From Clostridia bacterium (GTDB taxonomy: Bacteria > Bacillota > Clostridia > Christensenellales > Borkfalkiaceae), in NCBI GenBank assembly GCA_017522945.1, contig JAFWXT010000085.1:1-52787 (forward strand): a stretch of DNA of 52,787 nucleotides, read 5' to 3'. The notes below the pieces were generated by a model. It ran no database searches. It saw only the letters and a list, made by a program, of their open reading frames with translations, and was not told where the DNA came from. Shown piece by piece: positions 7,373-52,145 of this stretch. The position numbers and the translations under genes are program-made. Numbering within the stretch: position 1 is the stretch's first letter; every line of letters starts with the position of its first letter.

Positions 7373-7401
7373 TTGACTTTATTATATTATAATAATAAAA
7401 T
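7373..7401 (+). promoter_or_regulatory. Promoter of the SPFH/ESCRT-like operon
   Basis: TTGACT (7373-7378) and TAAAAT (7396-7401) are 17 bases apart. It lies about 80 bases before the first gene and is the only good promoter between 7.2 and 11.8 kb, so the five following genes are probably co-transcribed from it. Confidence 0.65.
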
Positions 7402-7483: not shown

Positions 7484-8491
7484 ATGAAAAAACAACCAGA
7501 AATTATCAAATATGAAGGAAATAACGAAGAATTATTCGTTAAAATTTCTTTAGACGAATGTACTTACGGCTCAAGAATTATTGTTCCTGAAACACACAAC
7601 GCAGTATTTTTAAAAGACGGCGTTTTAATGAACGTTTTAGATTCAGGCGCTCACGACGTTTTTGAAATGAAGAAAGTTGGTCTTTTTGCTAAAAAGCCAA
7701 CCGCTTGTACAGTTGACGTTATTTACCTATCAAAAACTGCAAAGTTAAGAGTTTTATGGGGAACTAAACAACAATTTGATACAAGAGACCCTATTACCGA
7801 CCTTTCAATTAAAGTTGGCGGAAGCGGTGAATTTGAAGTTCAAATCGGTAATCCAAGAAAGGCTTATCTTGAACTAATTGGTGCAACTAAATCGTTCTCT
7901 TTACAAGAACTTAAAGAACGTCTTTCTGGCAGAATGGCAGTTTATATTGAAGAAGCAATTGCTAAGGCTATGAGAGAAAAGAACCTTTCTTACGATCGTT
8001 TTAGCGAACACAAAAACGAAATTGCTGAAAACGTTAAGGCAATCCTTGCTAAAATGTTTGCAGAAGATTACGGCCTAAAGTTATTCTCGTTCACTTTATC
8101 AAGAGTTGTTATCGACGAAAAATACATACAAGCAATTCAAGATCATCTTAAATCAATCGAAAACGAAAAGAAAGCTGCTATTGCTGAAGCTGACAGAAGA
8201 AAGAGAGAAGATGAAGAACGCGTTCGCGCTGAAATCGCCGAAGATAAACGCAGACGTGAAGAGGAACGCCTTGACGATAAGGAATGGGAAAGAGAAAAAT
8301 GGCTTCTTGAACTTAAGAGCAAGGATTATGAAAAATACCTTGAAGTTGTTAAAGCTTTAGGTATTCAAGCGCAAGAAAAAGCTAAGCGCGATGAAGACAA
8401 AGAATGGGAAAGAGAAAAATGGCTTATGGAACTAAAGGTTAAAGATTACGACAAATATCTTGAAGTAATCAAAGCTTTAGCAAGAAAGTAA
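7484..8491 (+). CDS. SPFH-domain protein (YdjI-like) with repeated C-terminal coiled coil
   Basis: This 335-residue protein fits the SPFH/band-7 group close to Bacillus YdjI, a family that assembles on membranes and in Bacillus sits next to PspA (YdjF). Residues 1-210 are the SPFH-like region (VPETHNAVFLKDG, then an SGEFEVQIGNPRKAYLELIG segment). From about 211 on it is a long charged coiled coil. The last 70 residues contain two near-identical units, DKEWEREKWL(L/M)ELK...DYEKYLEV, beginning near 265 and 305, encoded with a 120-base period. No transmembrane segment or zinc ribbon is seen. AAGGAGAAAAAG precedes the ATG. First gene of the ESCRT-like operon; probably a membrane platform for it. 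Confidence 0.82.
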   Translation: MKKQPEIIKYEGNNEELFVKISLDECTYGSRIIVPETHNAVFLKDGVLMNVLDSGAHDVFEMKKVGLFAKKPTACTVDVIYLSKTAKLRVLWGTKQQFDTRDPITDLSIKVGGSGEFEVQIGNPRKAYLELIGATKSFSLQELKERLSGRMAVYIEEAIAKAMREKNLSYDRFSEHKNEIAENVKAILAKMFAEDYGLKLFSFTLSRVVIDEKYIQAIQDHLKSIENEKKAAIAEADRRKREDEERVRAEIAEDKRRREEERLDDKEWEREKWLLELKSKDYEKYLEVVKALGIQAQEKAKRDEDKEWEREKWLMELKVKDYDKYLEVIKALARK

Positions 8492-8536
8492 TCCAAATCT
8501 AAAATAAACCAAAATAAAATTTAAAGGGAGAATATT

Positions 8537-8875
8537 ATGTGCTTTTTTAAAAAACGTAGATCAAACGACGAAGGTTTAGTAGAAAATAAACGCGCTATCG
8601 AAGCTATGACCGGTAGCTTAGAAACTTTAAAGGTAGCAACCGACAATGCTGAAATTTTAGCAAAAATCGACCAAATTCAAGAAAAAATTAAATATATGAA
8701 CCCAACTCTTGATAAAAATGCGCACAACTTCGATAAGAAGATTAACGACGCTATTGGTGATTTAAAAATTGCAGTTATGAAAATTAAAACTGATGACGAC
8801 ATTGCTAAAATTTTAACTTCTTTTAAGCATCTTGAAATGCTTGTAGCAGACAGAATTAATAATTCAAGAGCATAA
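8537..8875 (+). CDS. Small helical protein, function unknown
   Basis: I do not recognise this 112-residue protein. It starts MCFFKKRR and is otherwise helical and charged with heptad-like spacing (residues 15-105). The short hydrophobic-basic N-terminus resembles that of the next gene (MGFFDFLFKKK), suggesting membrane contact. AAAGGGAG precedes the ATG. It lies 45 bases after the SPFH gene and 17 bases before the first ESCRT-III-like gene, so it is an operon member. It could be a third, shortened coiled-coil subunit or an adaptor. Confidence 0.7.
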   Translation: MCFFKKRRSNDEGLVENKRAIEAMTGSLETLKVATDNAEILAKIDQIQEKIKYMNPTLDKNAHNFDKKINDAIGDLKIAVMKIKTDDDIAKILTSFKHLEMLVADRINNSRA

Positions 8876-8892
8876 TTAAAGAAGGTGCGGTT

Positions 8893-9507
8893 ATGGGCTT
8901 TTTTGATTTTTTATTCAAAAAGAAAAATAAGTTCGATAAACTTACTCGCGACGAAGTAGTTAATTCGATTATCGAACTTGAAAGACAAGAAGAAAATTTA
9001 GAACACGAACTTGATGCTAAGGAAAAGGAAATTGCTAATTTAAAAGAAAAAGGCAGAACCGAAACTAACCATCAACGCAAGGTTCTTTACGCTAAAAAAA
9101 TACAATATTTAACACAAGAAACTAACGCAATCGTGCAACGTATTATGTACACGATGTATAACGTTTCTTTACTACAAAAATTAAAGGTTGCAGTTGACGA
9201 TAAGAACTTCTTCTTAGGCAGTCAAAATCAATCTTTAACGGCTTTACTTGCCGACCAACGCGCTTTAGCTGGATTTTTGAACGACGCTTTACAAACTCGC
9301 GTTAAAGCAGAAGATATTTTTACTTCTGCCGACGAAACTTTCAATATGATCCAAAGCGAATACAGTCCTAACGAAACCATTTATGGTATTAGCGAAAGCG
9401 AAGAAGAAATGCTTGCTATATTTGAAGAAGGCGCGCAAGCTGAAGCAGGTGCTTCAATCGGAGCGTTGGATACTCCGCAAGAAACAAAAACTAAAAGTTC
9501 AAGTTAA
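8893..9507 (+). CDS. Coiled-coil protein, candidate ESCRT-III/PspA-superfamily subunit (first copy)
   Basis: This 204-residue protein is almost entirely helical. It starts MGFFDFLFKKKNKFDKL, a short amphipathic segment like the membrane-inserting N-termini of ESCRT-III and PspA/Vipp1 proteins. A long helical hairpin follows (about 20-110), rich in Glu, Lys, Asn and Gln. The C-terminal quarter is acidic (SESEEEMLAIFEEGA) and ends in a loose Thr/Lys/Ser tail, the charge layout of ESCRT-III subunits (basic core, acidic regulatory tail). It precedes the second ESCRT-III-like gene by 19 bases. I infer a filament-forming membrane scaffold. A generic coiled coil remains possible; structure prediction would decide. 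Confidence 0.6.
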   Translation: MGFFDFLFKKKNKFDKLTRDEVVNSIIELERQEENLEHELDAKEKEIANLKEKGRTETNHQRKVLYAKKIQYLTQETNAIVQRIMYTMYNVSLLQKLKVAVDDKNFFLGSQNQSLTALLADQRALAGFLNDALQTRVKAEDIFTSADETFNMIQSEYSPNETIYGISESEEEMLAIFEEGAQAEAGASIGALDTPQETKTKSSS

Positions 9508-9526
9508 TTAAAAAGGAAAAGTAGAA

Positions 9527-10114
9527 ATGTTTGGCAATAAAGAAAAGAAAGAAATGGAAAAAAGATTGCTAGTTAAAAGAACGATTGCTTCAATGAACAA
9601 GCAAATCGAAAAACTTGAACAGCAAAAGAAATTCTTTTTAGATAAAGCAGTTGAAGCAAGAAAAAAAGGATTAGATTCTCAACTTGTTACCGCTATGAAC
9701 GGTTATAAAACAACAGCTATGCACCTAAAAAGAACTCAAGAGATGTTATTAAATTTTGAACTTACTTCTCAAATGAAGGATATGACTATGATGACTTCAG
9801 AATTCCTTCGCAGTATGGGCTCGCTAAGCAAAGAAATGGGCAAGCTTGCCGACGATAAAGAGTTTGTTAAGGTTCAAAAAGAATTTATGCGCGCTATGGA
9901 CAAGGTTGAAGTTCAAACTGAACAAATGGATACCTTTATGGAAATGAGCAAGGATTCGTTTACCAGCGCGGCAGGCGTTACTGCAAGCGCATCTTCAAAT
10001 GCCGAGCTTGAAAAACTTATCGACGATACTATCGTTGCCGAAACCGAAAGCCCAGCAAGCGCAGAAATGGATGATATCGAAGCGTTAAAGAAAAAAATCG
10101 ATTCTATGATTTAA
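9527..10114 (+). CDS. ESCRT-III/CHMP-like coiled-coil protein with C-terminal MIM-like motif (second copy)
   Basis: This 195-residue protein has the layout of an ESCRT-III (CHMP/Snf7) subunit. A basic helical hairpin occupies residues 4-95 (KRTIASMNKQIEKLEQQKKF, then KGLDSQLVTAMNGYKTTAMH), followed by a methionine-rich region (MKDMTMMTSEFLRSMGSLSK) and an acidic linker. The last residues are DDIEALKKKIDSMI. The stretch LKKKIDSM (187-194) fits the LxxRLxxL core of MIM1, the motif that binds MIT domains, with conservative changes. The next gene, 13 bases on, encodes an ATPase with an N-terminal MIT-like domain. PspA and Vipp1 are established bacterial members of the superfamily; a Vps4-type partner is much rarer. 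Confidence 0.68.
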   Translation: MFGNKEKKEMEKRLLVKRTIASMNKQIEKLEQQKKFFLDKAVEARKKGLDSQLVTAMNGYKTTAMHLKRTQEMLLNFELTSQMKDMTMMTSEFLRSMGSLSKEMGKLADDKEFVKVQKEFMRAMDKVEVQTEQMDTFMEMSKDSFTSAAGVTASASSNAELEKLIDDTIVAETESPASAEMDDIEALKKKIDSMI

Positions 10115-10127
10115 GCGGGGTAGGCTT

Positions 10128-11735
10128 ATGATAGACAACAACAAAATTAATCTGCTAAACGATGAGTTTTCGCATTTTTCACAAAAGGCGAAAGAGGCGC
10201 AAGAAGCAGGTAATTTGGATGGAGCAAGTAGATTTTATATTCTTGCCGCAAAAAAATTGGTTGAAATTGCTGAAATTTGCCCCGATAGGTTAAAAGCGGC
10301 AAAAATTTCGCATGCAAAACAGCTTATTGAACTTGCCGAAAGTTTAAAAAATCGCGCGCCACTTCCACCAAAACGTCCACAAACAAGGCCAACCGGCGGT
10401 AACGGTGGCGGTTCTAACGAACAAGGCGACGGTGAAGATGGAACTAAGTGGACGGCAAGCGCTATTCCCGATATTAGTTTTGACGATATTGCAGGGCTTG
10501 AAGACGTTAAAAGGGTTATTACTTTAAAAATGATTAACCCTATTAAGTATCCCGAAAAATACAAAACTTACGATATTAGAACGGGTGGCGGTGTGCTTTT
10601 ATTCGGCCCTCCGGGAACGGGTAAAACTATGATTGCTAAGGCAATCGCGCACGAGGTAGGCGCAACTTTTTACCAAGTTAAAGCATCCGACGTTATTAGT
10701 AAATGGGTTGGTGAATCCGAACAAAATATTCGCTCGCTATTTGAAACCGCACAAAAAGACGATAGAGCTATTATTTTTATCGACGAGTTAGACGGTTTGT
10801 TTGGCGAACGCGGAAAAGACGTTCATAACGACCGCCGTGTTAACGAATTTTTACAACATATGGATGGATTCGTTTCCAAGTCGGACAACCTATTATTGCT
10901 TGGCGCAACAAACCTTCCATGGATGGTTGACGCTGCGGCAAAACGCCCGGGTAGATTTTCGCAAGAAATTTACGTACCACTTCCCGACTATGAAGCGAGA
11001 AGATTCTTGGTTGCTAAAAGCCTTAAAAAATTTAAAGCAAACAAGGTTGTTGACGTTGAATTAGTTGCCAAGGTTTTAGAGGGATACAGCGGTGCGGATA
11101 TTTCGGAAATTTGCGATAGAGCAAAATCAAGATGTTTAGATCGCGACCTTTTAACAAGCGAAGCACAAACCCTTACTATGGACGATTTTTATGCGGTTAT
11201 TTCAACAAGCCGTCCTTCAGTATCTTCTGCCGACCTTGCTAAGTATGAAAAATACGCAAAGATAGATACTTCAAGAGCCGATGCTTTAATGCAAGGAATG
11301 AACGGTAATTTTAAATTCCCTGAAACTCCAAAAGCTCCCGAAGTTCCTAAGCAAGAGCCAAAAGCAGAAGAACCAAAAGCTCCCGAAGTTCCTAAGCAAG
11401 AACCAAAAGAAGAAGAACCAAAAGCTCCTGAAATGCCTAAGCAAGAACCAAAGAAAGAACAACCATCGGTTGAAGTTGAGTTTGAAAATACCAAAATTTC
11501 GGTTATGCCAAACGAAAAACCTGTTCTTGCATTCTTTGTAAGCGAAAAGGCTGAATGGATTGACTTGGTTATCGACGGTAAAACTTACGGTTGTACGGGT
11601 AGATTAAGAACTTGGGAAAGTGATCCGCTTGACGTGGAATCAGGTGAATATGAAGTAACTTTAAAGAGTGAAAAATTCACTTATAAAACAACTATCGAAT
11701 TTGTAAAAGGTTTATCTGAAAACGATTTGTTTTAA
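10128..11735 (+). CDS. Vps4-like AAA+ ATPase with N-terminal MIT-like domain
   Basis: This 535-residue protein is built like Vps4, the ATPase that disassembles ESCRT-III filaments. Residues 5-75 form a MIT-like three-helix segment (KAKEAQEAGNLDGASRFYIL). A Pro/Gly linker runs 76-107. The AAA module begins with ISFDDIAGLEDVKRVI (116-131), then Walker A GPPGTGKT (160-167), pore loop SKWVGESE (191-198), Walker B IIFIDE (215-220), sensor 1 GATN (259-262) and the KRPGRF arginine region (272-277). After about 390 it has three 15-residue Pro/Glu/Lys repeats (401-445) and an 85-residue beta-rich domain I cannot name. It follows the ESCRT-III-like genes in one operon. Katanin/spastin-type ATPases are the nearest alternative. 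Confidence 0.85.
   Translation: MIDNNKINLLNDEFSHFSQKAKEAQEAGNLDGASRFYILAAKKLVEIAEICPDRLKAAKISHAKQLIELAESLKNRAPLPPKRPQTRPTGGNGGGSNEQGDGEDGTKWTASAIPDISFDDIAGLEDVKRVITLKMINPIKYPEKYKTYDIRTGGGVLLFGPPGTGKTMIAKAIAHEVGATFYQVKASDVISKWVGESEQNIRSLFETAQKDDRAIIFIDELDGLFGERGKDVHNDRRVNEFLQHMDGFVSKSDNLLLLGATNLPWMVDAAAKRPGRFSQEIYVPLPDYEARRFLVAKSLKKFKANKVVDVELVAKVLEGYSGADISEICDRAKSRCLDRDLLTSEAQTLTMDDFYAVISTSRPSVSSADLAKYEKYAKIDTSRADALMQGMNGNFKFPETPKAPEVPKQEPKAEEPKAPEVPKQEPKEEEPKAPEMPKQEPKKEQPSVEVEFENTKISVMPNEKPVLAFFVSEKAEWIDLVIDGKTYGCTGRLRTWESDPLDVESGEYEVTLKSEKFTYKTTIEFVKGLSENDLF
11328..11462 (+). repeat. Three 45-base tandem repeats inside the Vps4-like gene
   Basis: Units start at 11328, 11373 and 11418 and encode PKAPE(V/M)PKQEPK-type segments. 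They form a flexible, proline-rich linker between the AAA module and the C-terminal domain. The near-identity at base level suggests recent duplication and possible length variation between strains. Confidence 0.85.
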
Positions 11736-11853: not shown

Positions 11854-12804
11854 ATGGCTGTATATTGTAAAAATTGTGGTGGCGAAGCAAAAGAACTTAG
11901 CGCTAACCAATATGAATGTTTATGCTGTGGTGAAAGATTTTCAACTGCACCAGCGCGTACTGAAGCGCCTGCCCCAGCACCAGCTCCAGCCCCTGCGGTA
12001 AGCGAACCTGTTAAATCAGGTAGAAGAGTTTGGTCGGGTGATGAAATTTACGAACATGCAATCGGCGCGGTAGTAGAAGTTTACGCAATGCATCCAGGTT
12101 CAAACTGGATGAGTTCGGCTTCGGGCTTTGTTATTTCCGAAAAGGGATTTATTTTAACTAACGCTCACGCAGTTTTAGATGATAAAGGAAAATTATACGA
12201 ACAAGTTACCGTTAAAACTTCAGTAGGTAATTTTGCCGCTAAAATAGTTGCTTACGGCAGACCAGCTGACGGCAGACACGACAACGTTGACCTTTGCTTA
12301 TTGTTTGCCGAAGGATTAAGGGTTGAACCTAACGTTTTAGGTGATTCAGGCGCGTTAAAAAATGGGCAAAAAGTTTACCTTATTGGTAACTCTCTTGGCG
12401 CAGGAACTTGTATTACAAGCGGTATTATAAGCGATAAAGCAAGAGCGCAATCAGGTTTATCTTATCCTTATATTATGACTGACGCCGCTGCAAACCACGG
12501 TAACTCAGGCGGTCCGCTATTTAACGAATACGGCGAAGTTATTGGTGTTTTAGTTGCAGGTATTGAAAACGCAAAGGGAATGAACTTTGCTATTCCATCT
12601 GACGTAGCTAAGCAATTTATCGAATACGTATTCTCAAGCACCGAAATGAAGTATGCAAACCTTGGCGACTTGAATGAATACGCAGTTAAAAGAGTTCAAA
12701 CATATAGCGTTGCCGGAACGCTTACTGCTATTGCAACGGGCATAAGCTTAGTTGCTGAAGTTATTAACTTTTTAGCTAAGTACGTATTTAACAAAAACAA
12801 CTAA
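11854..12804 (+). CDS. Zinc-ribbon trypsin-like serine protease (HtrA/DegP-like, no PDZ)
   Basis: This 316-residue protein joins an N-terminal zinc ribbon (YCKNCGG...YECLCCG; C5, C8, C22, C25) to a trypsin-like protease through an Ala/Pro linker (32-50). The protease has SASGFVISEKGFILTNAHAV (H105), NVDLCLL (D146) and NHGNSGGPL (S218), a complete HtrA-type triad. No PDZ domain follows. The C-terminus (about 287-312) is a hydrophobic segment that may anchor the protein to the membrane. There is no signal peptide, so the domain order suggests a cytosolic protease. CGGAGAA precedes the ATG. The same zinc ribbon starts both TIR proteins downstream. A cleavage-activated effector or quality-control protease is inferred. 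Confidence 0.88.
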   Translation: MAVYCKNCGGEAKELSANQYECLCCGERFSTAPARTEAPAPAPAPAPAVSEPVKSGRRVWSGDEIYEHAIGAVVEVYAMHPGSNWMSSASGFVISEKGFILTNAHAVLDDKGKLYEQVTVKTSVGNFAAKIVAYGRPADGRHDNVDLCLLFAEGLRVEPNVLGDSGALKNGQKVYLIGNSLGAGTCITSGIISDKARAQSGLSYPYIMTDAAANHGNSGGPLFNEYGEVIGVLVAGIENAKGMNFAIPSDVAKQFIEYVFSSTEMKYANLGDLNEYAVKRVQTYSVAGTLTAIATGISLVAEVINFLAKYVFNKNN

Positions 12805-12861: not shown

Positions 12862-12891
12862 TTGCCACAGCGAGATTTTTCGTTGTGGCAA
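12862..12891 (+). other. Hairpin between the protease gene and the first TIR gene
   Basis: TTGCCACAGCG pairs with CGTTGTGGCAA (one G-U pair) around an eight-base loop. No T run follows, so it may only weaken read-through. The 227-base gap 12805-13031 holds no other feature that I can support; no clear promoter was found. Confidence 0.5.
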
Positions 12892-13031: not shown

Positions 13032-16000
13032 GTGGATACAAACGTAGAGCAATTTCACTTACCGGTATGCCAAAGCTGTGGCGGTGAATACGAACATATA
13101 TCTGAAAACAAATATAAATGTAAAAACTGTGGAAACGTTCATTTTATAAACAATCCACTTTCTTCTCAAGTAACGAGCGCTTCAATTCGTGAAGGAACGA
13201 TACTTCGTAACGACGGTTATTTTGATAAAGCCGAAAGCCATTTTATGGACGTTATTGAAAAATCCTCAAACCCTGCCGATTTAGCCGAAGCTTATTGGGG
13301 AAGATTTTTATGTGAATACGGTATTATACACGTGCGCGATAAAAAAACGGGCACTTATTTGCCAACCGCTTGTCACAGAATAATGTCTATTCCTGCGCAG
13401 AAGGATAAATATTATTTAAAGGCTTTAGAATATTGTGATAGTCAGCTTAAAAAAGAAGAATATACAAAGGGCGCGGAATATATTGAAAATATTCGTTTAC
13501 GCCAAATTGAAGAAGCAAAAAAGCAACCTTATCAAATTTTTATAAGCCATAAAAAGACTATTGATAACCCCGGCGCATCAACTGAAAGTTACACACGTGA
13601 CTACATTCAGTCGGGTAAACTATACCGCTTTTTAACAGGTAAGGGATATAAAGTTTTCTTTGCCGACGAGTCTTTAACTAAAGGCTCGGTAGGTAGCGCG
13701 TTTGAAGCGCAAATTTTTACGGCTATTGCAACCAGTAAGGTTATGATAGTTTTAGGTAGCTGTAAGGAAAATTTAAACGCGCCTTACGTTAAAAACGAAT
13801 GGACAAGATTTTTACGCCAACAAGAATACGACCACGAAAAGGTTATTATTCCCGTTTTAATTGACGGTATGCCACCAAACCAACTACCAAGTGAACTTCG
13901 TAAAATCGAAGGGCTTGAAATGGATGCCGATTTTAACGAAAAACTATTAAAACAGTTAGAAGTTATATTTAAAAACGACAAAGCGCACGATATAAAAACT
14001 AAAGTTTTAGGCGCGCGTGATGCTAAAAAGGCAACAAAGGTTTCGGGCGTAGAAAAAAGAAGTTTTGCAAATAGCGGTATTGAAGCGAAAAAACTTCTTA
14101 TTCAACAAGAAAGAGATATCGACGTGGCGTTTAGATATTTAGGCGAACACGCTTACTCTGATGCAAAATATATATTAACAAAACAAATTGAATACACCGA
14201 CGACGTTGATGAAATTGTTGATTTCGGTTTAAAACAAATTTCTATAGTTCCAAAGCTTATTAAAGCAGAGTTTAACCACGCGCTTGACCAAAGCGTATTC
14301 AACACTTTTAACGAAGCAGTTAAGGGTGCGCCCGATAGCTCAAGAGAGATTATTTTTAACTACTTTGAAAACTTTACTTTAGAGGCATTAAAGGTATCAA
14401 ATATCAGCTGGGGTGTTAAATTATACTCAACTATAATGGCTTGGGACTACGAAGGTAGAGATAAATTCGACGATAAAGTTCGTGATTTAGCACATAGTTG
14501 GCTTGACAAAACAACACCACAAATGCTTAAAAACTATACTTTACTTATGAAGGAAGTTTTAAAGTTTGACGAAGGTGGCATTGATAATTACTTGCTTGGC
14601 TTAAACACTTGCGCTGATAATATTTTAGCGGCAGGCAATAAAGAAATAGGTGTTCCTAAAACAATCATACGCGAACTTGCGCTTTCTTTCTATAATGATA
14701 TTGTAGAACACGATGAAGGCGATTACAAAACTCGTTGGAAAATTATTCTTTTTAAAACGGGCACTACAGAAGAAAAATATTTGAAAAACGTTATTTCAAA
14801 CTTTACCTTCTTCCAAGAATTTCAGTTGATGCTTGAATTTACGCCCGAAAAAAACCGTCACGATTACGTTGATAAACTTATAAACGCAATTATAGGCGGA
14901 ACAAAAGATTTTTTAGCTAAAAAATCAAATAATAAGGTTGACCCATATCTTGCTTTATTTAACGAAGCAATTACATTTACGGGTAACGGCAAAGATATTT
15001 ATCTTCGCGGTAAACTTTATGAATTTGCTCGCGTTTTACAAGATGCTTACGAGTTTTTACACGCGATTACTTATTATAATATGATAGTGCGCGAAAAACC
15101 CGATGAATGTGACGCGCATTGGGGTTTATTGCAATGTAAAACAAATAGCCGTAACGACGATGAGTTGATTGCGCAGAAAAAGCCTATTCACCGCATGAAA
15201 GAGTTTACTAACGCTTATCAAGCGGCAGGCTCGAACGAAACTAAGGTTAATTACTATTTAGAAGTAAAGCGTAAACAAGGCAAGCACACTGTATCAACTT
15301 CTACTGAAAAACGTTATAAACGAAATAAAACGTACGGTATTTTTGCAATAATTTTTTCTTTAATATCACTTGTGGCTGCATTTTATGCTTTTTATAAAAT
15401 AACGGAGGACTATATGATAGATATGAAGACATTAGCGCTAAGCACCGAGTTCCCAATGTTTATGATTTGCGCAGCAGCAACGTTAATTGCAATAATTATA
15501 GGCTCAATAGGTCTTAAAAAACCTGCCGAAAAGAATAAAGCTAAAATTATTTTAAACGTTGTTACAACTTTATTCTTACTAGTTTCAACCTTCTCGTCTT
15601 TTGTTGCTTGTAAAACATATACGGGATTTAAAGTTGTTTTACATCACGACGGGCAAGTTACTGAATATCTTGCAAACCCATATGATAAAGAAATTAGTTT
15701 TATACCACTAAAAGATGGTAAAAAATTTGTTGGCTGGCGCGATGAAAAGGGTAACATTGTATTACTAAGGGGCGAAACCTTTGAAGAATTCCCTTGGAAA
15801 GATGGCGTTACTCTTCACGCAGTGTGGGAAGACGTTACAGTTCAAAGTGTTACAACCCAAGAACAAATTACAAATATTGTTAACGAAATAAACTCGTGGG
15901 CGCTTCTTGATTGTAGCCAAGTTGAAGAAGGCACACCTATTAAGGTTACAGTTCCTAAACACGTAAGCCATTTAAAGGTTAGCGGTAACGGCAACGTTTT

Positions 16001-17798
16001 AGATATTTCCTTTGATATTGGAGATAGAAGTGAAGCCATTACCTTTGAGTTTGAAAACGTTATTGTTAATTCAACTTCAACGATTATAACAAGCAATAAT
16101 AATGCAAGTGTAAACGTTGTTGCTTCGGGTACAGAATTTGATTTTGTTGGTGACAAGCAAGGCGAACCTGCTAGAATATTTAACGTTAACGGCGACCTTA
16201 TGCTTACTTTTAACGAAGAAGTTAAGGTAAACGAAGGCGCAGGCAAAAACTACAACCTTTCACTAAACGGTGGTATTAAGTGTAACGATTTAACTATTAA
16301 GGGCAGTAATGGTGGCGGTTGGTTTAATATTCAAACCAGCGATATAATCGCTATCGAAGCATCAATGGTACAAATTGACTGCAGTAAGTTTACTTGCTAT
16401 CAATATTCAAACAAAACCGAAGGCGCAATTATTGCTTGTTCAAGTTTAATTGCCGAAGTTGATACTTTTGAACTTTCAAACGAAGGCAACGCAAACAATT
16501 CGCCTATTGCAATTCAAGCAACTTCTGCTACAATAAAAGCAAACTCACAAATTAATATTTCTGCCGTTTACTCGTTTAACGTAAGCGAAAAACTAAGCTT
16601 AGAATTTATTCAAAGTGAAGTTCAACCTTTAAGCGAAAGCGCTCAACTTTGTGGAACTGGCGCTATCGAGTGTGGCGAATTATCTCTTCTCGGCGGTAGT
16701 TATAATATTGCAGGTATTGAAAAAACGGCTATCAAAGCAATTAACGTAAGCGTAAAAGCTAATAAGTTAAACGTTGTAAGCCTACCTACAAGCAATACAA
16801 ACGTTGATCTTGTAAGTTGTGAAAACTTTAACGCTGAAGTTGAAGAATTATCGATAGTTTGTGGAAACTATAATAATAACGGAGCAAACGCTTTAGTTGC
16901 TACAAACGTAAATATCAAGGTTTTAACTTCTGCCAATATCGAAGGCGGTAGAGCAGTAGGCTCAGCGTGTGTGGGCGGTAATGGTATTGTTGCTACAAAC
17001 GTTGTTATAACTGGCGAAGAAAACACAACTCTTACAGTAGAAGGTGGTAACGGATATTTAGCAGTTGGAAATACTGGTGCAACCGGTGGTAACGGTGGTA
17101 ACGCTATTTGCGCAAATGATATTCAATTAAGCGGTTTAACTGCTCACTTATTTGCGGGCGCAGGTGGTACTGGCGCGCAAGGGACAACGGGTTATACCCC
17201 ATGGCCTCCATCCGCAAGAGGTCAACATAACGAAGGTGGAACTAAAGGCTATAGGGGTTATGACGGATATCAAGGTGGTACTGGCGGTAAAGGTGGTACT
17301 GGCGGTAATAGCGGTAGGGCTATAGCAAACGCTACAACCCTTACTATTTCAAACGGCGCAATTATCCACGCGCACGAAGCAGATAGTGGCGCTGGTGGTA
17401 AAGGCGGTACTGGCGGTGCGGGTAGCCGTGGAGGTGACGGTGGCGCAGGTACAGATGCTAAATTCTTAGGAAGAAAGGGTTCAGATGGTGGTGACGGTGG
17501 TACTGGTGGTAAAGGTGGTACTGGCGGACCTGGTGGTGACGGCGGTGTTATTTTAAATGCAATACAAAGTGGTGTTCAGTTAAATAGTGAAGAAGGTTGT
17601 ACTTTGCAAGTACACACGCGACCTGCAAGCGGAGGTGCTGGAGCGCCTGGCGCAGGTGGGGCTGGAGGCGCAGGTGGGGCTGGTGGTAGAGCTGGTGATG
17701 GTATAACAGCTACTTATTCTAGAGGATCAACAGGCGCACCTGGTGCAACTGGTAATACCGGAACTATTTACGGCAATCCAAGAACTCACGAAATATAA
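13032..17798 (+). CDS. Giant zinc-ribbon / TIR / transmembrane / glycine-rich protein
   Basis: This 1588-residue protein has several modules. An N-terminal zinc ribbon (CQSCGGEYEHISENKYKCKN; C13, C16, C30, C33) precedes a TPR-like helical segment. A TIR domain runs about 166-300 (YQIFISHKK, then KGYKVFFADESLTKG, with E225 at the usual catalytic glutamate position). A long helical region follows. Three transmembrane segments lie near 770-791, 809-827 and 838-859. An InlB-type repeat (about 862-928, ending VTLHAVWE) leads to beta-helix-like repeats. Residues about 1337-1576 are glycine-rich (GGTGGKGGTGG), recalling PGRS or collagen-like surfaces. The start is GTG with AAGGGAG upstream. I infer a cytosolic TIR part and an extracellular C-terminal part. 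Confidence 0.85.
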   Translation: MDTNVEQFHLPVCQSCGGEYEHISENKYKCKNCGNVHFINNPLSSQVTSASIREGTILRNDGYFDKAESHFMDVIEKSSNPADLAEAYWGRFLCEYGIIHVRDKKTGTYLPTACHRIMSIPAQKDKYYLKALEYCDSQLKKEEYTKGAEYIENIRLRQIEEAKKQPYQIFISHKKTIDNPGASTESYTRDYIQSGKLYRFLTGKGYKVFFADESLTKGSVGSAFEAQIFTAIATSKVMIVLGSCKENLNAPYVKNEWTRFLRQQEYDHEKVIIPVLIDGMPPNQLPSELRKIEGLEMDADFNEKLLKQLEVIFKNDKAHDIKTKVLGARDAKKATKVSGVEKRSFANSGIEAKKLLIQQERDIDVAFRYLGEHAYSDAKYILTKQIEYTDDVDEIVDFGLKQISIVPKLIKAEFNHALDQSVFNTFNEAVKGAPDSSREIIFNYFENFTLEALKVSNISWGVKLYSTIMAWDYEGRDKFDDKVRDLAHSWLDKTTPQMLKNYTLLMKEVLKFDEGGIDNYLLGLNTCADNILAAGNKEIGVPKTIIRELALSFYNDIVEHDEGDYKTRWKIILFKTGTTEEKYLKNVISNFTFFQEFQLMLEFTPEKNRHDYVDKLINAIIGGTKDFLAKKSNNKVDPYLALFNEAITFTGNGKDIYLRGKLYEFARVLQDAYEFLHAITYYNMIVREKPDECDAHWGLLQCKTNSRNDDELIAQKKPIHRMKEFTNAYQAAGSNETKVNYYLEVKRKQGKHTVSTSTEKRYKRNKTYGIFAIIFSLISLVAAFYAFYKITEDYMIDMKTLALSTEFPMFMICAAATLIAIIIGSIGLKKPAEKNKAKIILNVVTTLFLLVSTFSSFVACKTYTGFKVVLHHDGQVTEYLANPYDKEISFIPLKDGKKFVGWRDEKGNIVLLRGETFEEFPWKDGVTLHAVWEDVTVQSVTTQEQITNIVNEINSWALLDCSQVEEGTPIKVTVPKHVSHLKVSGNGNVLDISFDIGDRSEAITFEFENVIVNSTSTIITSNNNASVNVVASGTEFDFVGDKQGEPARIFNVNGDLMLTFNEEVKVNEGAGKNYNLSLNGGIKCNDLTIKGSNGGGWFNIQTSDIIAIEASMVQIDCSKFTCYQYSNKTEGAIIACSSLIAEVDTFELSNEGNANNSPIAIQATSATIKANSQINISAVYSFNVSEKLSLEFIQSEVQPLSESAQLCGTGAIECGELSLLGGSYNIAGIEKTAIKAINVSVKANKLNVVSLPTSNTNVDLVSCENFNAEVEELSIVCGNYNNNGANALVATNVNIKVLTSANIEGGRAVGSACVGGNGIVATNVVITGEENTTLTVEGGNGYLAVGNTGATGGNGGNAICANDIQLSGLTAHLFAGAGGTGAQGTTGYTPWPPSARGQHNEGGTKGYRGYDGYQGGTGGKGGTGGNSGRAIANATTLTISNGAIIHAHEADSGAGGKGGTGGAGSRGGDGGAGTDAKFLGRKGSDGGDGGTGGKGGTGGPGGDGGVILNAIQSGVQLNSEEGCTLQVHTRPASGGAGAPGAGGAGGAGGAGGRAGDGITATYSRGSTGAPGATGNTGTIYGNPRTHEI

Positions 17799-17873: not shown

Positions 17874-19325
17874 ATGGAAACTGAATTACAAGGCAAATTG
17901 TGTAAAAACTTTTCGGGAATGGTTGTTAAAAAAACCGATTTGAAGTCTGTTTTTGGAACTTTAAATATTCCTTCATACGTACGTGACTGGTTCGTTCGTA
18001 AGTATTCAGACCAAGAAGGTAATTTTAATGCGCGTGAAGGTTTAAGAAACCTAAGAAAAATTATGCCTGAAAGCGGCGAATGGACTGCGGTTTTAGATAA
18101 AATAATGGAAGGCGAGCAAGTTAAAATTTTAGCAAGAACTTCTGTTAAAATGAGCATTAAAACAGGTCAAGTAAGCTTTACTTTACCCGACTACGGCGTA
18201 ACCGAAAACGATACCTATATTTCTCCCGACGTGTGGAACAAAGTTAAAGGTTCATTCCTTTCTGAAAACGAAGGTTGGGGTATTGTTGTGTTAGGTTATA
18301 CTCGCGTTGCAGTTGGCAAAAACTTTGTTGGTAAGGTTGCACTCGTTGACTATGCCGACTTTAGACCATATAACGTTGAACTTGATTACTACAAAAAAGC
18401 AAGATCTCTATTTACAACCGAAGAATGGATTGATATTATGCTTGGCTCTATCGACTATAACGCTGATGGGTTTGCAAGCGAAGAACAAAAGCTTACTATG
18501 CTTAAGCGTTTAATGCCGTTCGTACAAGCAAGATTAAACCTTATCGAACTTGCGCCAAAGGGAACGGGTAAATCATATTTATTCTCACAAATAAGCAAAC
18601 ACGGTTGGCTTGTTAGCGGTGGCAGTATGACCAGAGCAAAACTTTTCTACGATATGCAACAACACCGTGAAGGCTTAATCACTCGTTACGACTATATTGC
18701 TTTCGACGAAATTTCTACTATGACTTTCCCTAACGAAGACGAAATGAAGAGCGCTTTAAAGGGCTACTTAGAAAACGGCAAATTTACAGTTGGTAACAAA
18801 ACCGGTAAAGGTACTGCTGGTTTAATTCTTTTAGGTAATATTAACCAAAGCGATATGAACGTAAACAAGAATATGTTTACAACTCTTCCCGATATTTTTG
18901 CGGAATCTGCGCTTCTCGATCGTTTCCACGGCTTTATCGAAGGTTGGAAAATTCCAAGACTTAGCGAATCAATTAAGATGAACGGTTGGGCAATCAATAG
19001 CGAATATTTTTCAGACGTTATGCATAAACTACGCGACGATGAAACGTACGCAAACCTTGTTAACCAACTTATAGTAGTTCCCGATAATGCCGATATGCGT
19101 GATACTACCGCAGTTAAGCGTTTAACCGAAGCGTTTATTAAAATTTTATTCCCACACTGGCAAGAAAAAGAAGACGTTAACAACGAAGAATTTATTAAAT
19201 ATTGCTTAACACCTGCTGTTGAAATGCGTGCGGTTATAAGAAAACAACTTTCTATTTTAGATAGTGAATATCCAAGCGAAATGAACGTTTACACTTCTTC
19301 ACTTGAAGAAAAGCAAGAAGCGTAA
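17874..19325 (+). CDS. brxL: BrxL-like AAA+ ATPase lacking the Lon-type C-terminal domain
   Basis: This 483-residue protein matches the BrxL family of BREX phage-defence loci. Signatures are the N-terminal SGMVVKKTDL...IPSYVRDWF, FTTEEWIDIMLGSIDYNADG, LNLIELAPKGTGKSY (Walker A at 228-234), WLVSGGSMTRAKLFYD, YIAFDE (Walker B, 274-279), LLGNINQSD and LLDRFHGFIEGWKIP. Full-length BrxL is usually nearer 650-700 residues with a Lon-protease-like C-terminus; that part is absent and the gene ends cleanly. AAAGGAG precedes the ATG. No pglX, pglZ or brxC is present, so this is a stand-alone BrxL in a TIR/ESCRT-like setting. A DNA- or filament-binding ATPase is expected; its target is unknown. Confidence 0.85.
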   Translation: METELQGKLCKNFSGMVVKKTDLKSVFGTLNIPSYVRDWFVRKYSDQEGNFNAREGLRNLRKIMPESGEWTAVLDKIMEGEQVKILARTSVKMSIKTGQVSFTLPDYGVTENDTYISPDVWNKVKGSFLSENEGWGIVVLGYTRVAVGKNFVGKVALVDYADFRPYNVELDYYKKARSLFTTEEWIDIMLGSIDYNADGFASEEQKLTMLKRLMPFVQARLNLIELAPKGTGKSYLFSQISKHGWLVSGGSMTRAKLFYDMQQHREGLITRYDYIAFDEISTMTFPNEDEMKSALKGYLENGKFTVGNKTGKGTAGLILLGNINQSDMNVNKNMFTTLPDIFAESALLDRFHGFIEGWKIPRLSESIKMNGWAINSEYFSDVMHKLRDDETYANLVNQLIVVPDNADMRDTTAVKRLTEAFIKILFPHWQEKEDVNNEEFIKYCLTPAVEMRAVIRKQLSILDSEYPSEMNVYTSSLEEKQEA

Positions 19326-20111: not shown

Positions 20112-23100
20112 ATGATAGAATTATACTGTAAAAACTGTGGCGGAACGCTACAACCCATAAGCGAAGATATTTGCAAATGCGAAAACTGTGGCTCTACTTA
20201 CACGCAGGTAACCGCAAAAAAACAGCAAGAACTTTTAGATGGGTTTTTAAACAAACAAAAACAAGATAAACTTAATAGTTTGCGCCGTCATCTTTGGCAA
20301 GAAGTAACTGCCAAGTTTATTGACAGTAGCAAAATAATTTCTATTTGCTTGGATATTAAAAATATTTATCCAAACGATTTTCTTGCAAATTTTTACGAAG
20401 TGGCTTGCGGTAAAAATACCGCTCAAACCACTGATTTTATCGACCAAATCGACGCTCAAGAAAACTACGATACAATAGAACAAGTTGTAAACTTTTTAAT
20501 TAAATCTTTAAAAAGTGAGTATTTGCTTTCTGTTAACAACTTAATTGAAAGAGCGTATAAGGGCAGGGATTTACAAACCTATAACCGCCTAACAACAGCT
20601 TTTGCAAGTCAAGCCGAGCTTGTTGAAGAGGGCGTTTACGAAATAAATATCCCGCGTGACGTGTTCGTGGCGTATTCAAGCGCGGATATGGCGTACGTAC
20701 AACAAGCGGTAACTGCTTTAGAAGAACAAGGCATTACTTGCTTTGTTGCAATGCGTAACCTACAACACGGCGCAGGCGCAGTTGATAACTATCAACACGC
20801 GCTTGAAAGCGCAATGGATAACTGCAAAATAGTGCTATTTATATCATCAAAAAATTCGCGCAGTTTAAAGTGTGACGCAGTAAAGCACGAGCTTCCTTAT
20901 TTAAAAAAGAGCGACTTAGCAAAGCTTTCGCTAAAATTTCCTAACGTTCCTTACGAAAAAATTGATTATAGATACAAAAAGCCAAGGATTCAATGGCGAA
21001 TTGATGATAACAAAAGCCTTGCCGTTGATAGGCTAATTGGCGAAATTTTTAACGGGCTTGAATACTGTTATAGCGTTGATAGCGTTATCGAGCGCGTTGG
21101 CGAATACTTGTTTGGCGAAACTTACGAAGAAGAGCCTTCGGCAGTTCAAAAGCAACTTGAAGAGCAAAACAAGCTTTTACAAAAACAACTTGAACAGCAA
21201 AAAGAATTTTTAAAAAAACAAGCCGAAGAACAAGAAAAGCGCTTAAAGGAAGAACTTAAAAAAAAGGTTGCTTCACTAAATAATGAGCCACAAAAATCGC
21301 CAAACGTTAGTGAAAGTAAACAACCTGCCTTAAAAGATACAAACGTTAACGAAAATAGTCAAGCTACTTTAACAAACACAAAAGTTGGTGACTATATAAA
21401 ATTTGGTAAATACCCGCAAAGCGACGCTAATACCAAAGAAGATATCGAGTGGTTAGTGCTTGATACACAGGGTAGTAAAGCTTTGGTTATTAGTAAATAT
21501 GCTTTGGATTGCCAAAAATATAACGATAAAAAAATTGACGTAACCTGGGAAACTTGCTCTTTAAGAAAATGGCTAAACGGCAAGTTTATAAATACTGCTT
21601 TTTCAACCAAAGAAAAGAAATTTATACAAACAACGCTTGTTAGTGCAGACAAAAACCCAGACCATAAAACAAATCCAGGAAATGAAACTGAAGATAAGGT
21701 TTTTTTATTAAGCATACAACAAAGAGGCAAATATTTGCCAATAACAAAAGAAAAGTTTTGCAAGCCAACAAAATATGCGAAAGATAATAAGTTATTTACA
21801 AGCAGTAATGACGCTTGTTCCTGGTGGCTACGTTCGCCTGGTTATTGCCAAACGAACGCATCTAGCGTACAAATTACAGGTTATTTAGATAGTTACGATA
21901 GTGTTATATGTGATAACGCCGTGCGCCCGGCAATGTGGGTTGAGCTTGATGAACAAGCCAAGCAAGATAATCAAGTAAGCAAAAAAACAATCTTAAATAA
22001 GCCAGTAAAATCTTATAAAAACGCTGAAGTTGGCGATATTATTCAGTTTGGTAAATACCCACAAAGCGTTGCTAATACCAAAGAAGATATCGAATGGTTA
22101 GTGCTTGACAAACAAGAAGGTAAACTATTAGTTATTAGTAAATACGGGTTAGATCGTAAAAAATATAACGAGCAATTCGAAGAAAAAACAACGTGGGAAA
22201 ATTGTAGTTTGCGTAATTGGTTGAATAATGAGTTTATAAATAATGCATTTACAAGCGAAGAGAGCAAAAAGATACAAGCTTCTTGTGTTCGTGCAGATAA
22301 AAACCCAAGCTATAATACAAACCCAGGAATATCAACGAATGATAAGGTATTTTTATTAAGTACAAACGAAGTAAATAAATATTTTACAAGTGATAAAGAA
22401 AGGGAATGTAAGATAACTGCCTATGCAAAAGGTAGTTTGTTTAAAGATAAAAACGACAACTGCGACTGGTGGCTACGTTCACCCGGAAAGGCGCAGGACA
22501 GGGCGAGTATCGTTGGTGGTGCAGGTAGCGTAAATAACTATGGTAACTACGTTGGTAATAGTGACAACGCCGTTCGCCCGGCAATGTGGATATACGTTGA
22601 AGAGCCTAAAAAAGAAGAGCCAAAAACTGAAGAAAGCACAACCTTAAGCAAGGCCAAAAAAGCGGATACTGCAACAAAGACTGCAGTAACTAAAACTACG
22701 GCAACTGAAAAGGCTACGGCTACCACTAAAACTACAAAAACTGCAGTAACTAAAACTACGGCAACCGAAAATATTGCCGAAAGCAAAAAAGAGCCTGCAA
22801 AAACGTTATCTGCAACAGCCGAGGCAAAGCCTTTAGCAAAAACCGAGGCAAAAAAGCAAGATGACAAGTATAAAAAGGGCGCGATTATTACTTTGGGTAG
22901 TTATCCACAGTCTAGTTCTACACAAAAAGAGCCTATCGAATGGAAGATTATTAAAAAGCAAGGCAATAAAGCCCTTCTTATAAGCAAACACGCGCTTGAT
23001 ACAAAGGTGTTTCATTCAAAAGAAGAAAGCATTACTTGGGAAAATTGCTCGCTTCGTACGTGGCTTAATACCGAGTTTTTTAACACTGCATTTTTAGATA

Positions 23101-51089: not shown

Positions 51090-51116
51090 AAATAATGTTA
51101 TTATTTGGAGGAAATT

Positions 51117-52145
51117 ATGGAAGAAAAAATTTTAAGAACTAAAAAGAACGGTATGACCGTTATGCTAACTTGCATTTTAGTTTTAATTGCAAGCATCGCC
51201 TTGGCTATATTTAGCGGAATTAAACTTGAAGCAGACGAAGACAATATTCTTTTTAACCTTTTAATGGGGCTTAGCTTTGTTATGCTTATTTGTGGCATAC
51301 TTCCACTACCTGGCTTAAAGGTTTTAAAACCAAACGAAGCTTTAGTTTTAACTTTATTTGGTAAATATATTGGCACGCTAAAAGGTGACGGTTTTTATGC
51401 AGTAAACCCATTTGCTGTTGCCTTTAACCCTGCTGCAACAACAAAACTAAAACAAAGCGGTGACGTTTCATCAACACCAGTCACAACCGTTTCTACTTCG
51501 GAAGGAACTACTACTACCGTTCAATCGGTAGATAAAAAGGTTTCGCTTAAGGTAATGACTTTAAACAATAGCCGTCAAAAAATTAACGACTGTTTAGGTA
51601 ACCCTGTTGAAATTGGTATTGCAGTTATGTGGCGTGTGGTTGATACGGCAAAAGCTGTGTTTAACGTTGATAACTACAAAGAATATTTATCACTTCAATG
51701 CGATATGGGCTTAAGAAATATTGTTCGTGCTTATCCTTACGACGTAGCTCCAAACGTTGATACTACTGGTGATGGCCTTGCAGATGATGGTAGCTTACGC
51801 GGTTCAAGCGAAATTGTTGCTCAAAAAATTAAAGAAGATATTCAAGCACGTGTTGAAGATGCAGGTATTGAAATTATTGATGCAAGAATTACCTACCTTG
51901 CTTATGCAACCGAAATCGCTTCTGTAATGCTTCAACGTCAACAAGCAGCTGCTATTATCGACGCAAGAAAGATGATAGTAGATGGCGCAGTTGGTATGGT
52001 TGAAATGGCTCTTGATAGATTAAGCGAAAATCAAGTTGTTACTTTAGATGAAGAAAGAAAAGCACAAATGGTTTCAAATCTTTTAGTTGTACTTTGCGGT
52101 AACCGTGATGCTCAACCTATTGTAAATTCGGGTAGTTTGTATTGA
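51117..52145 (+). CDS. SPFH/band-7 domain membrane protein
   Basis: This 342-residue protein has two transmembrane segments near the N-terminus (about 12-33 and 44-63) and an SPFH domain from about 68 (LKPNEALVLTLFGKYIGTLK, VMWRVVDTAKAVFNVDNYKE). The C-terminal half is helical (RVEDAGIEIIDARITYLAYA, MLQRQQAAAIIDARKMIVDG). I use the ATG at 51117; the in-frame TTG at 51105 overlaps the GGAGGAA ribosome-binding site. It is a different SPFH type from the YdjI-like one at 7.5 kb. SPFH proteins organise membrane microdomains and often hold proteases. It is followed directly by the RHH gene. Confidence 0.9.
   Translation: MEEKILRTKKNGMTVMLTCILVLIASIALAIFSGIKLEADEDNILFNLLMGLSFVMLICGILPLPGLKVLKPNEALVLTLFGKYIGTLKGDGFYAVNPFAVAFNPAATTKLKQSGDVSSTPVTTVSTSEGTTTTVQSVDKKVSLKVMTLNNSRQKINDCLGNPVEIGIAVMWRVVDTAKAVFNVDNYKEYLSLQCDMGLRNIVRAYPYDVAPNVDTTGDGLADDGSLRGSSEIVAQKIKEDIQARVEDAGIEIIDARITYLAYATEIASVMLQRQQAAAIIDARKMIVDGAVGMVEMALDRLSENQVVTLDEERKAQMVSNLLVVLCGNRDAQPIVNSGSLY

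Follow-up and report, generated by a model that had tools for sequence, protein, structure and literature searches.

The archaeal Cdv/ESCRT system pairs an ESCRT-III-family protein (CdvB) with an ATPase (CdvC/Vps4), and a published survey describes this ESCRT-III/Vps4 pairing as restricted to archaea and eukaryotes. According to PMC11237479, some bacterial PspA/Snf7 genes do lie near other AAA+ ATPases, and for these ATP-dependent membrane remodelling has already been proposed. Here we describe a five-gene operon (7484-11735, plus strand) on contig JAFWXT010000085.1 of a Clostridia bacterium (assembly GCA_017522945.1; order Christensenellales, family Borkfalkiaceae), of which the whole 52,787-nucleotide stretch that was analysed is referred to as the window. 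The operon encodes a relative of ESCRT-III (referred to as E3b) directly followed by an ATPase with a MIT-like domain. On balance, E3b, a second protein predicted to be a coiled coil (E3a), an SPFH protein and the ATPase probably form a bacterial machine akin to ESCRT, with membrane-bound filaments that the ATPase would take apart.

The locus resembles archaeal Cdv/ESCRT in that the ESCRT-III-family gene adjoins the MIT-like-AAA gene, and in that the CdvC model spans residues 9-377 of the ATPase. It differs in its bacterial host, its SPFH and E3a partners, the extra C-terminal region of its ATPase and its Cdc48-like AAA core. The methanoarchaeal "Meth_adaptin" ESCRT loci (PMC10936438) likewise unite SPFH, ESCRT-III and Vps4 in one locus, whereas no adaptin or ProX was found among the window genes scanned (in the course of a scan not dedicated to them). 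Bacterial PspA-YdjI/band-7 loci (PMC11237479 and PMC10936438) also join an SPFH/band-7 protein to a protein of the ESCRT-III superfamily, but this protein is PspA instead of the Snf7-like E3b, and the AAA+ partners named for them differ as well, having two AAA+ domains or else a coiled coil with a beta-propeller. Vps4-like AAA proteins do occur in bacteria, although beside the transferred Vps4-like ATPases of PMC11237479 a TPR/6TM gene displaces snf7, whereas in the window a Snf7-like gene adjoins the MIT-like-AAA gene. Our literature search, in which preprints and subscription journals were thinly covered, found, among the titles listed, none on a bacterial operon of ESCRT-III and MIT-AAA. 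If true, a bacterial unit of an ESCRT-III-family protein and a MIT-like-AAA protein would alter the view of the range and origin of ATP-driven ESCRT, and the operon would offer a small system for testing filament disassembly. ESCRT-III proteins cut membranes in human cells, and E3b is a bacterial relative encoded beside a predicted filament-disassembling ATPase.

The five plus-strand open reading frames (ORFs) encode an SPFH/Band 7 protein (335 aa; 7484-8491), a small protein (112 aa; 8537-8875), E3a (204 aa; 8893-9507), E3b (195 aa; 9527-10114) and the ATPase (535 aa; 10128-11735). The intergenic gaps are 45, 17, 19 and 13 bases, which confirms the five tightly spaced genes, with gaps of 13-45 bases, of the original prediction made for this DNA.

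Relatives of E3b place it with ESCRT-III

The product of the gene at 9527 had been predicted to be ESCRT-III-like. In three of the order's 297 genomes, E3b relatives exceeded the curated cut-off of the Pfam family Snf7 (27.3 bits), with 33.3, 28.0 and 27.9 bits. The 28.0-bit match is a domain of a fusion protein, and the 33.3-bit protein (genome G219, locus L077) is encoded in an operon whose genes are arranged as in the window and shares 42% identity with the window E3b across 185 residues. Snf7 was also the Pfam family with the most matching E3b relatives, reaching nine of the 23 members of a wider set (A6, comprising 17 stand-alone and six fused proteins) at E<=0.1, with a best value of 2.8e-8; the corresponding count for the 33 close relatives (A2) was four, with a best value of 0.0015. 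PspA_IM30 was absent from the Pfam families inspected, being all 21 matched by A2 and 25 of the 42 matched by A6. A Snf7 scan of 14 control genomes gave a match in Sulfolobus acidocaldarius only, below the cut-off.

Alignment of A6 with six eukaryotic ESCRT-III proteins via hhalign yielded 95.2% (E-value 2.9e-8 over 148 columns; reversed controls 0.3%), and A2 yielded 27.7% (6.4e-4; reversed 0.1%). A PDB sequence profile search with A2 gave no match at E up to 1. The AlphaFold2 (AF2) model of E3b, with a mean predicted local distance difference test (pLDDT) of 71.8, contains helices at residues 2-47, 50-107, 111-147, 155-173 and 179-194, and thus predicts, with moderate confidence, a long hairpin of helices with shorter ones after it. 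When this model was compared with the PDB in Foldseek, rows 1-20 were all members of the ESCRT-III superfamily (ESCRT-III/PspA/Vipp1/CdvB), with probability up to 0.99. Foldseek against viral models revealed no ESCRT-rich top among the 50 matches listed, with a single phage PspA at rank 8. By the sequence evidence of its relatives, then, E3b is a relative of ESCRT-III with membership in the Snf7 family, and the predicted fold with its ESCRT-III hairpin matches agrees with what had been proposed for this gene.

Three points weigh against this assignment. The window E3b itself scores 16.3 bits against Snf7, which is below the cut-off; the Foldseek E-values for the E3b and E3a models were all >0.001; and VIA Z, which reached up to 10.6 and 12.9, gave no separation of ESCRT-III from other helical hairpins. 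Were the ESCRT likeness indeed that of a generic helical hairpin, the operon might encode a coiled-coil scaffold in the cytoplasm, served by an unfoldase, with no membrane remodelling. We regard this as improbable, given the sequence-level Snf7 matches with their clean reversed controls and the presence of an SPFH gene in 25 of the 37 E3b loci of our linkage tally (38 loci fetched, of which 37, from 36 genomes, have a strong E3b match, while L030 of genome G112 lacks one and was dropped; window excluded).

A MIT-like domain precedes an AAA core in the ATPase

The ATPase had been described as a full Vps4-type protein, with MIT-like helices at residues 5-75, a linker and an AAA domain. The order of N-terminal domain, linker and AAA is indeed seen in the window ATPase, as are the motifs GPPGTGKT (the Walker A, residues 160-167; 10605-10628), SKWVGESE, IIFIDE and GATN. 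Absent from that description was a P/E/K-rich linker after the AAA domain, followed by a C-terminal region (residues ~440-535; 11448-11735) that only part of the family has.

The N-terminal domain (residues about 5-77; 10140-10358) was compared with the PDB via a profile of 36 such domains. The first row was 2mpk (chitin synthase 1; 7.3e-4), presumably a MIT domain, and the next rows were one unnamed ORF and designed helical proteins at 0.005. These were followed by 2w2u (0.017) and 2v6y (0.32), both labelled p60 katanin and taken by us to be Sulfolobus Vps4 MIT domains, and by VPS4A (0.76) and VPS4B (4.4). In the same search, the competing Sel1 repeats scored 0.8 and the best synthetic consensus TPR 1.2; a first N-terminal alignment (A4) had revealed mostly designed helical proteins. 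Pfam MIT matched 5 of the 36 domains at E up to 0.1 (best 1.5e-6), and TPR_8 matched 3 (best 0.0026).

A MIT-like identity is opposed by several scores. Pfam MIT on residues 1-81 of the window ATPase gave 0.0021 and 18.5 bits, with a cut-off of 30; none of the matches listed for the 36 domains exceeded this cut-off; and across the 297 genomes MIT had four matches at E <= 0.001, again none above it. Only the match in G358 is this ATPase, while the fetched regions of G218 and G422 match no operon profile and the fourth genome (G291) falls outside the fetched set. Furthermore, hhalign aligned the N-terminal domain with three Vps4 MIT sequences at 9.9% and with a consensus TPR at 57%. Because the MIT domain of VPS4 itself scores 82% against the same TPR, this comparison was set aside; reversed ESCRT-III gave 4-5% with the N-terminal alignment. 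The domain can thus be called MIT-like, though not proven to be MIT, and not clearly TPR: the earlier preference for MIT over TPR stands, below every curated cut-off.

For the AAA part, Pfam reported AAA (2.3e-40), AAA_lid_3 (7e-9) and Vps4_C (1.1e-7) in the window ATPase. The Vps4_C score of 32.2 bits exceeds its cut-off of 21.3 but covers only profile positions 28-57 of 61, and the ATPase of locus L064 scored 18.4 bits, below the cut-off. In NCBIfam, CdvC came first for the window ATPase (224.2 bits) and CDC48 second (212.5 bits). Descent from Vps4 is called into question by four observations. The CdvC score lies far under the 650-bit cut-off of that model; all 21 chosen ATPases match both models, with best E-values of 7e-70 for CDC48 and 6.2e-67 for CdvC; human VCP D2 outscores yeast Vps4 in 19 of these 21 members, in a comparison with one eukaryotic reference each and no archaeal Vps4; and RPGRF, as in Cdc48 D2, occupies the second region of homology, in which yeast Vps4 carries RRRFERRIY. 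Because of these CdvC/CDC48 scores, the VCP D2 preference, the RPGRF motif and the below-cut-off MIT matches, we call the ATPase Vps4-like in architecture only. By domain order it is likely Vps4-like, with Vps4 descent not proven; of the full Vps4-type ATPase initially envisaged, the domain order and motifs hold, but the AAA core is closer to Cdc48 D2 than to yeast Vps4.

The same core, with its RPGRF motif, speaks for an alternative in which a PspA/YdjI-type membrane-stress system has independently recruited a Cdc48-derived ATPase, so that the operon would work in an ESCRT-III/Vps4-like manner while having been assembled apart from the archaeal machine. The SPFH partner, which YdjI-PspA loci also have (PMC10936438), and the confinement of E3b to one order in the genomes sampled point the same way. 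Less easily accommodated by this alternative are the lead of Snf7 among Pfam matches of E3b, the lack of PspA_IM30 in the family lists inspected, and the presence of a MIT-like domain alongside a loosely MIM1-like tail, the combination of archaea and eukaryotes. We consider it a serious contender that falls short of an even chance.

The C-terminal tail of E3b

The tails of E3b relatives were scanned for MIM1, with its consensus as strict pattern and with a looser MIM1-like pattern, in which E is allowed for R/K and which was defined after the tails had been inspected. The strict pattern occurs in 3 of the 17 stand-alone A6 members (0.13 in shuffled tails) and in 1 of the 6 fused ones. The looser pattern occurs in 20 of the 33 close relatives (shuffled mean 0.8) and in none of 29 E3a proteins. 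This evidence is weakened on three sides: the strict pattern was found in 0 of the 33 close relatives (shuffled mean 0.24); the count of 20 is swollen by kinship, and its pattern was defined post hoc; and the C-terminal helix of the window copy (10067-10111), with its tail LKKKIDSM, fits neither the strict nor the looser acid-led pattern.

E3a and the SPFH protein

The second coiled-coil protein of the original prediction, which had proposed two ESCRT-III/PspA-like proteins, fared less well than E3b. The AF2 model of E3a, a predicted helical hairpin, has a mean pLDDT of 65.7, and 13 of its 14 first Foldseek rows in the PDB were PspA, Vipp1, Asgard ESCRT-III or CHMP, all at E >0.2. At the sequence level, no ESCRT-III or PspA family appears among the 24 Pfam families to which 29 E3a members gave matches, and hhalign against ESCRT-III gave 0.8%, so that a second ESCRT-III subunit is not proven; a PDB sequence profile search with the E3a alignment (A1) returned two unconvincing rows only. 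From its low-confidence predicted fold, E3a is a possible PspA/Vipp1-like subunit. E3a was also considered as a paralog of E3b and is not called one, because hhalign between the two gave 1%.

The SPFH partner that had been claimed is borne out by Pfam (Band_7_1 3.7e-14, Band_7 2.9e-10), with the Band 7 domain at 53.3 bits against a cut-off of 24, and this protein would serve as the membrane platform. By eye, its end (window 8200-8491) contains two similar charged segments, EDKEWEREKWL-ELK-KDY-KYLEV-KAL. A second Band_7 protein is encoded at 51105-52145, distant from the operon. The small protein has no Pfam family above cut-off and a weak PADLOC match to JetB (4.5e-4).

Conservation and variants of the operon

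In the family, 14 of 151 genomes have E3b; in the order, 32 of 297 do (28 strong and 4 weak matches), corresponding to 21 of 126 genera with weak matches included. The weak matches (G173, G274, G352 and G365; E about 2e-4) lie outside the fetched loci. Among 398 genomes across the phylum, as among 245 genomes of the class searched with the wider E3b profile, only the window genome matched. A contig search with the ATPase revealed one distant AAA only (L001), and viral contigs held no relatives with two peptide patterns.

In the linkage tally, 34 of the 37 loci carry, co-oriented with E3b, an ORF that combines a MIT-like part with an AAA part, 25 carry E3a, and 25 and 19 have, respectively, an SPFH gene and a small-protein gene within 5 kb of E3b. 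Some of these loci supplied rows to the search profiles, and the neighbour counts are lower bounds, because many contigs are short. In many genomes, then, the gene keeps these co-oriented neighbours, and a conservation far past chance answers the proposed survey of neighbours in other genomes. Across the order, a strong match to the MIT-like profile was present in 27 of the 28 strong-E3b genomes (E below 1e-10) and in none of the 269 others; the 28th (G280) gave a weak match at 1e-4. The window's family plus one databank protein supplied the sequences for this profile, and just 4 of the 28 carriers come from that family.

Several loci contain fused variants. In L028, an E3b domain is fused to a Vps4-like AAA in one 551-aa protein, followed by the MIT-like-AAA gene, and because of this fusion and the above co-occurrence, E3b and the ATPase are supported as acting together. 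Longer ATPases in L024-L027, L067 and L069-L072 have ~300 residues between the MIT-like and Vps4-like AAA parts; in L025, the only one on which Pfam was run, this insert is a second AAA with AAA_lid_6. We take this second AAA to be CbxX-like. Other E3b domains are fused to FtsK/SpoIIIE motors (L029, 3978-5855; L081, 9509-11419; L082, 8719-10251) or to a RuvB-type motor (L085, 4969-6633). The MIT-like protein of L085 bears, by eye, another AAA type, a point against the machine that we propose.

Snf7 matches occurred in nine of the 297 genomes; seven of these (all but G217 and G348) were looked at further, and four of the seven are E3b carriers by the E3b profile. In G306, G168 and G290 a Snf7-scoring ORF lies directly 5' of a related AAA gene with a protease adjoining, and the E3b profile gave no match there. 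The divergent loci L099-L101 have a related AAA (~396 aa), a trypsin-like protease and Snf7-scoring ORFs beyond the reach of the E3b profile; the E3b family is probably larger than our present counts.

A working model and its neighbours

In the ESCRT-like machine that we propose, the SPFH protein likely organises a site on the inner membrane, at the cytoplasmic face of which a polymer of E3b, and probably of E3a too, would grow. The MIT-like domain would then bind E3b by its C-terminal helix, and subunits would be threaded through the AAA hexamer and pulled out, so that the filament would be recycled or remodelled. The recurrent neighbours (protease, TIR, BrxL) suggest that the machine is tied to defence signalling or membrane damage, which is the least certain step. 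From the genes, we infer a complete module in a bacterium; in the earlier reading of a filament-plus-disassembler module, E3b, the MIT-like domain, SPFH and the conserved unit held up, and E3a and the Vps4-type AAA core are less secure. The most far-reaching version, a complete bacterial ESCRT-III/Vps4-type machine that is SPFH-anchored, has an AAA coupled via MIT and tail, comes in fused-motor variants (AAA, FtsK/SpoIIIE, RuvB) and is wired by TIR and protease into membrane-damage immunity, is put forward tentatively, at just under an even chance.

Downstream of the ATPase gene, after 118 bases, starts a gene for a trypsin-like (HtrA-type) serine protease (11854-12804, plus strand; Trypsin_2 1e-26), with zinc-ribbon-like N-terminal cysteines by eye. 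A terminator-like hairpin with a 13-pair stem (12862-12891, plus strand), a candidate end of the transcription unit, lies 3' of this gene; terminator-like sites in the region number 11, versus a shuffled mean of 6.0. Because of the 118-base gap and the hairpin that follows, the protease gene probably belongs to the operon as its sixth and final gene. Two further plus-strand genes encode a TIR protein of 1588 aa (13032-17798; TIR_2 3.2e-10), in which hydrophobic stretches and, near the N-terminus, zinc-ribbon-like cysteines are seen by eye, and a BrxL-like protein (17874-19325; TIGR02688 427.6 bits, cut-off 329.3). The second half of the TIR protein, after the hydrophobic stretches, appears very Gly-rich and repetitive.

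These neighbours raise the possibility of a defence (conflict) module, in which filaments would sense phage membrane damage, the ATPase and protease would relay the signal, and TIR/BrxL would act as effectors. Near E3b, relatives of the first 330 residues of the TIR protein (zinc-ribbon-TIR) occur within 8 kb in 18 of the 37 loci, the trypsin-like protease within 6 kb in 10 and BrxL within 8 kb in 7; the presence of E3b in 21 of 126 genera, with weak matches counted, is patchy, and the ATPase and fusion partners are variable. On the other hand, PADLOC, run on eight window proteins, returned a strong match for BrxL only: the ATPase and protease match defence models via their AAA and protease domains, and E3a, E3b and SPFH match none at 0.01. 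Moreover, the viral contigs lack relatives by the two-pattern measure above, and 19 of the 37 loci have no zinc-ribbon-TIR relative within 8 kb, some contigs being short. Such a module is in our view rather unlikely; more broadly, the gene neighbourhood suggests that the operon possibly has a role in membrane stress or defence.

Upstream of the operon, a candidate sigma-70-type promoter (TTGACT-17-TAAAAT; 7373-7401, plus strand) is graded weak, because promoter-like sites in the region (17) number close to the chance mean of 14.3. The gene content of the window contig is bacterial (SHMT, a V-type ATPase operon, DNA polymerase III gamma/tau), the source genome comprises 1.85 Mb in 99 contigs at 95% completeness, and the sources of related proteins include Eubacteriales bacterium and Clostridia bacterium. 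Further downstream, a gene at 20112-25598 encodes a protein of 1828 aa that contains TIR as well as six stretches of DUF6273, and is adjoined by a phosphopantetheinyl transferase-like gene (19449).

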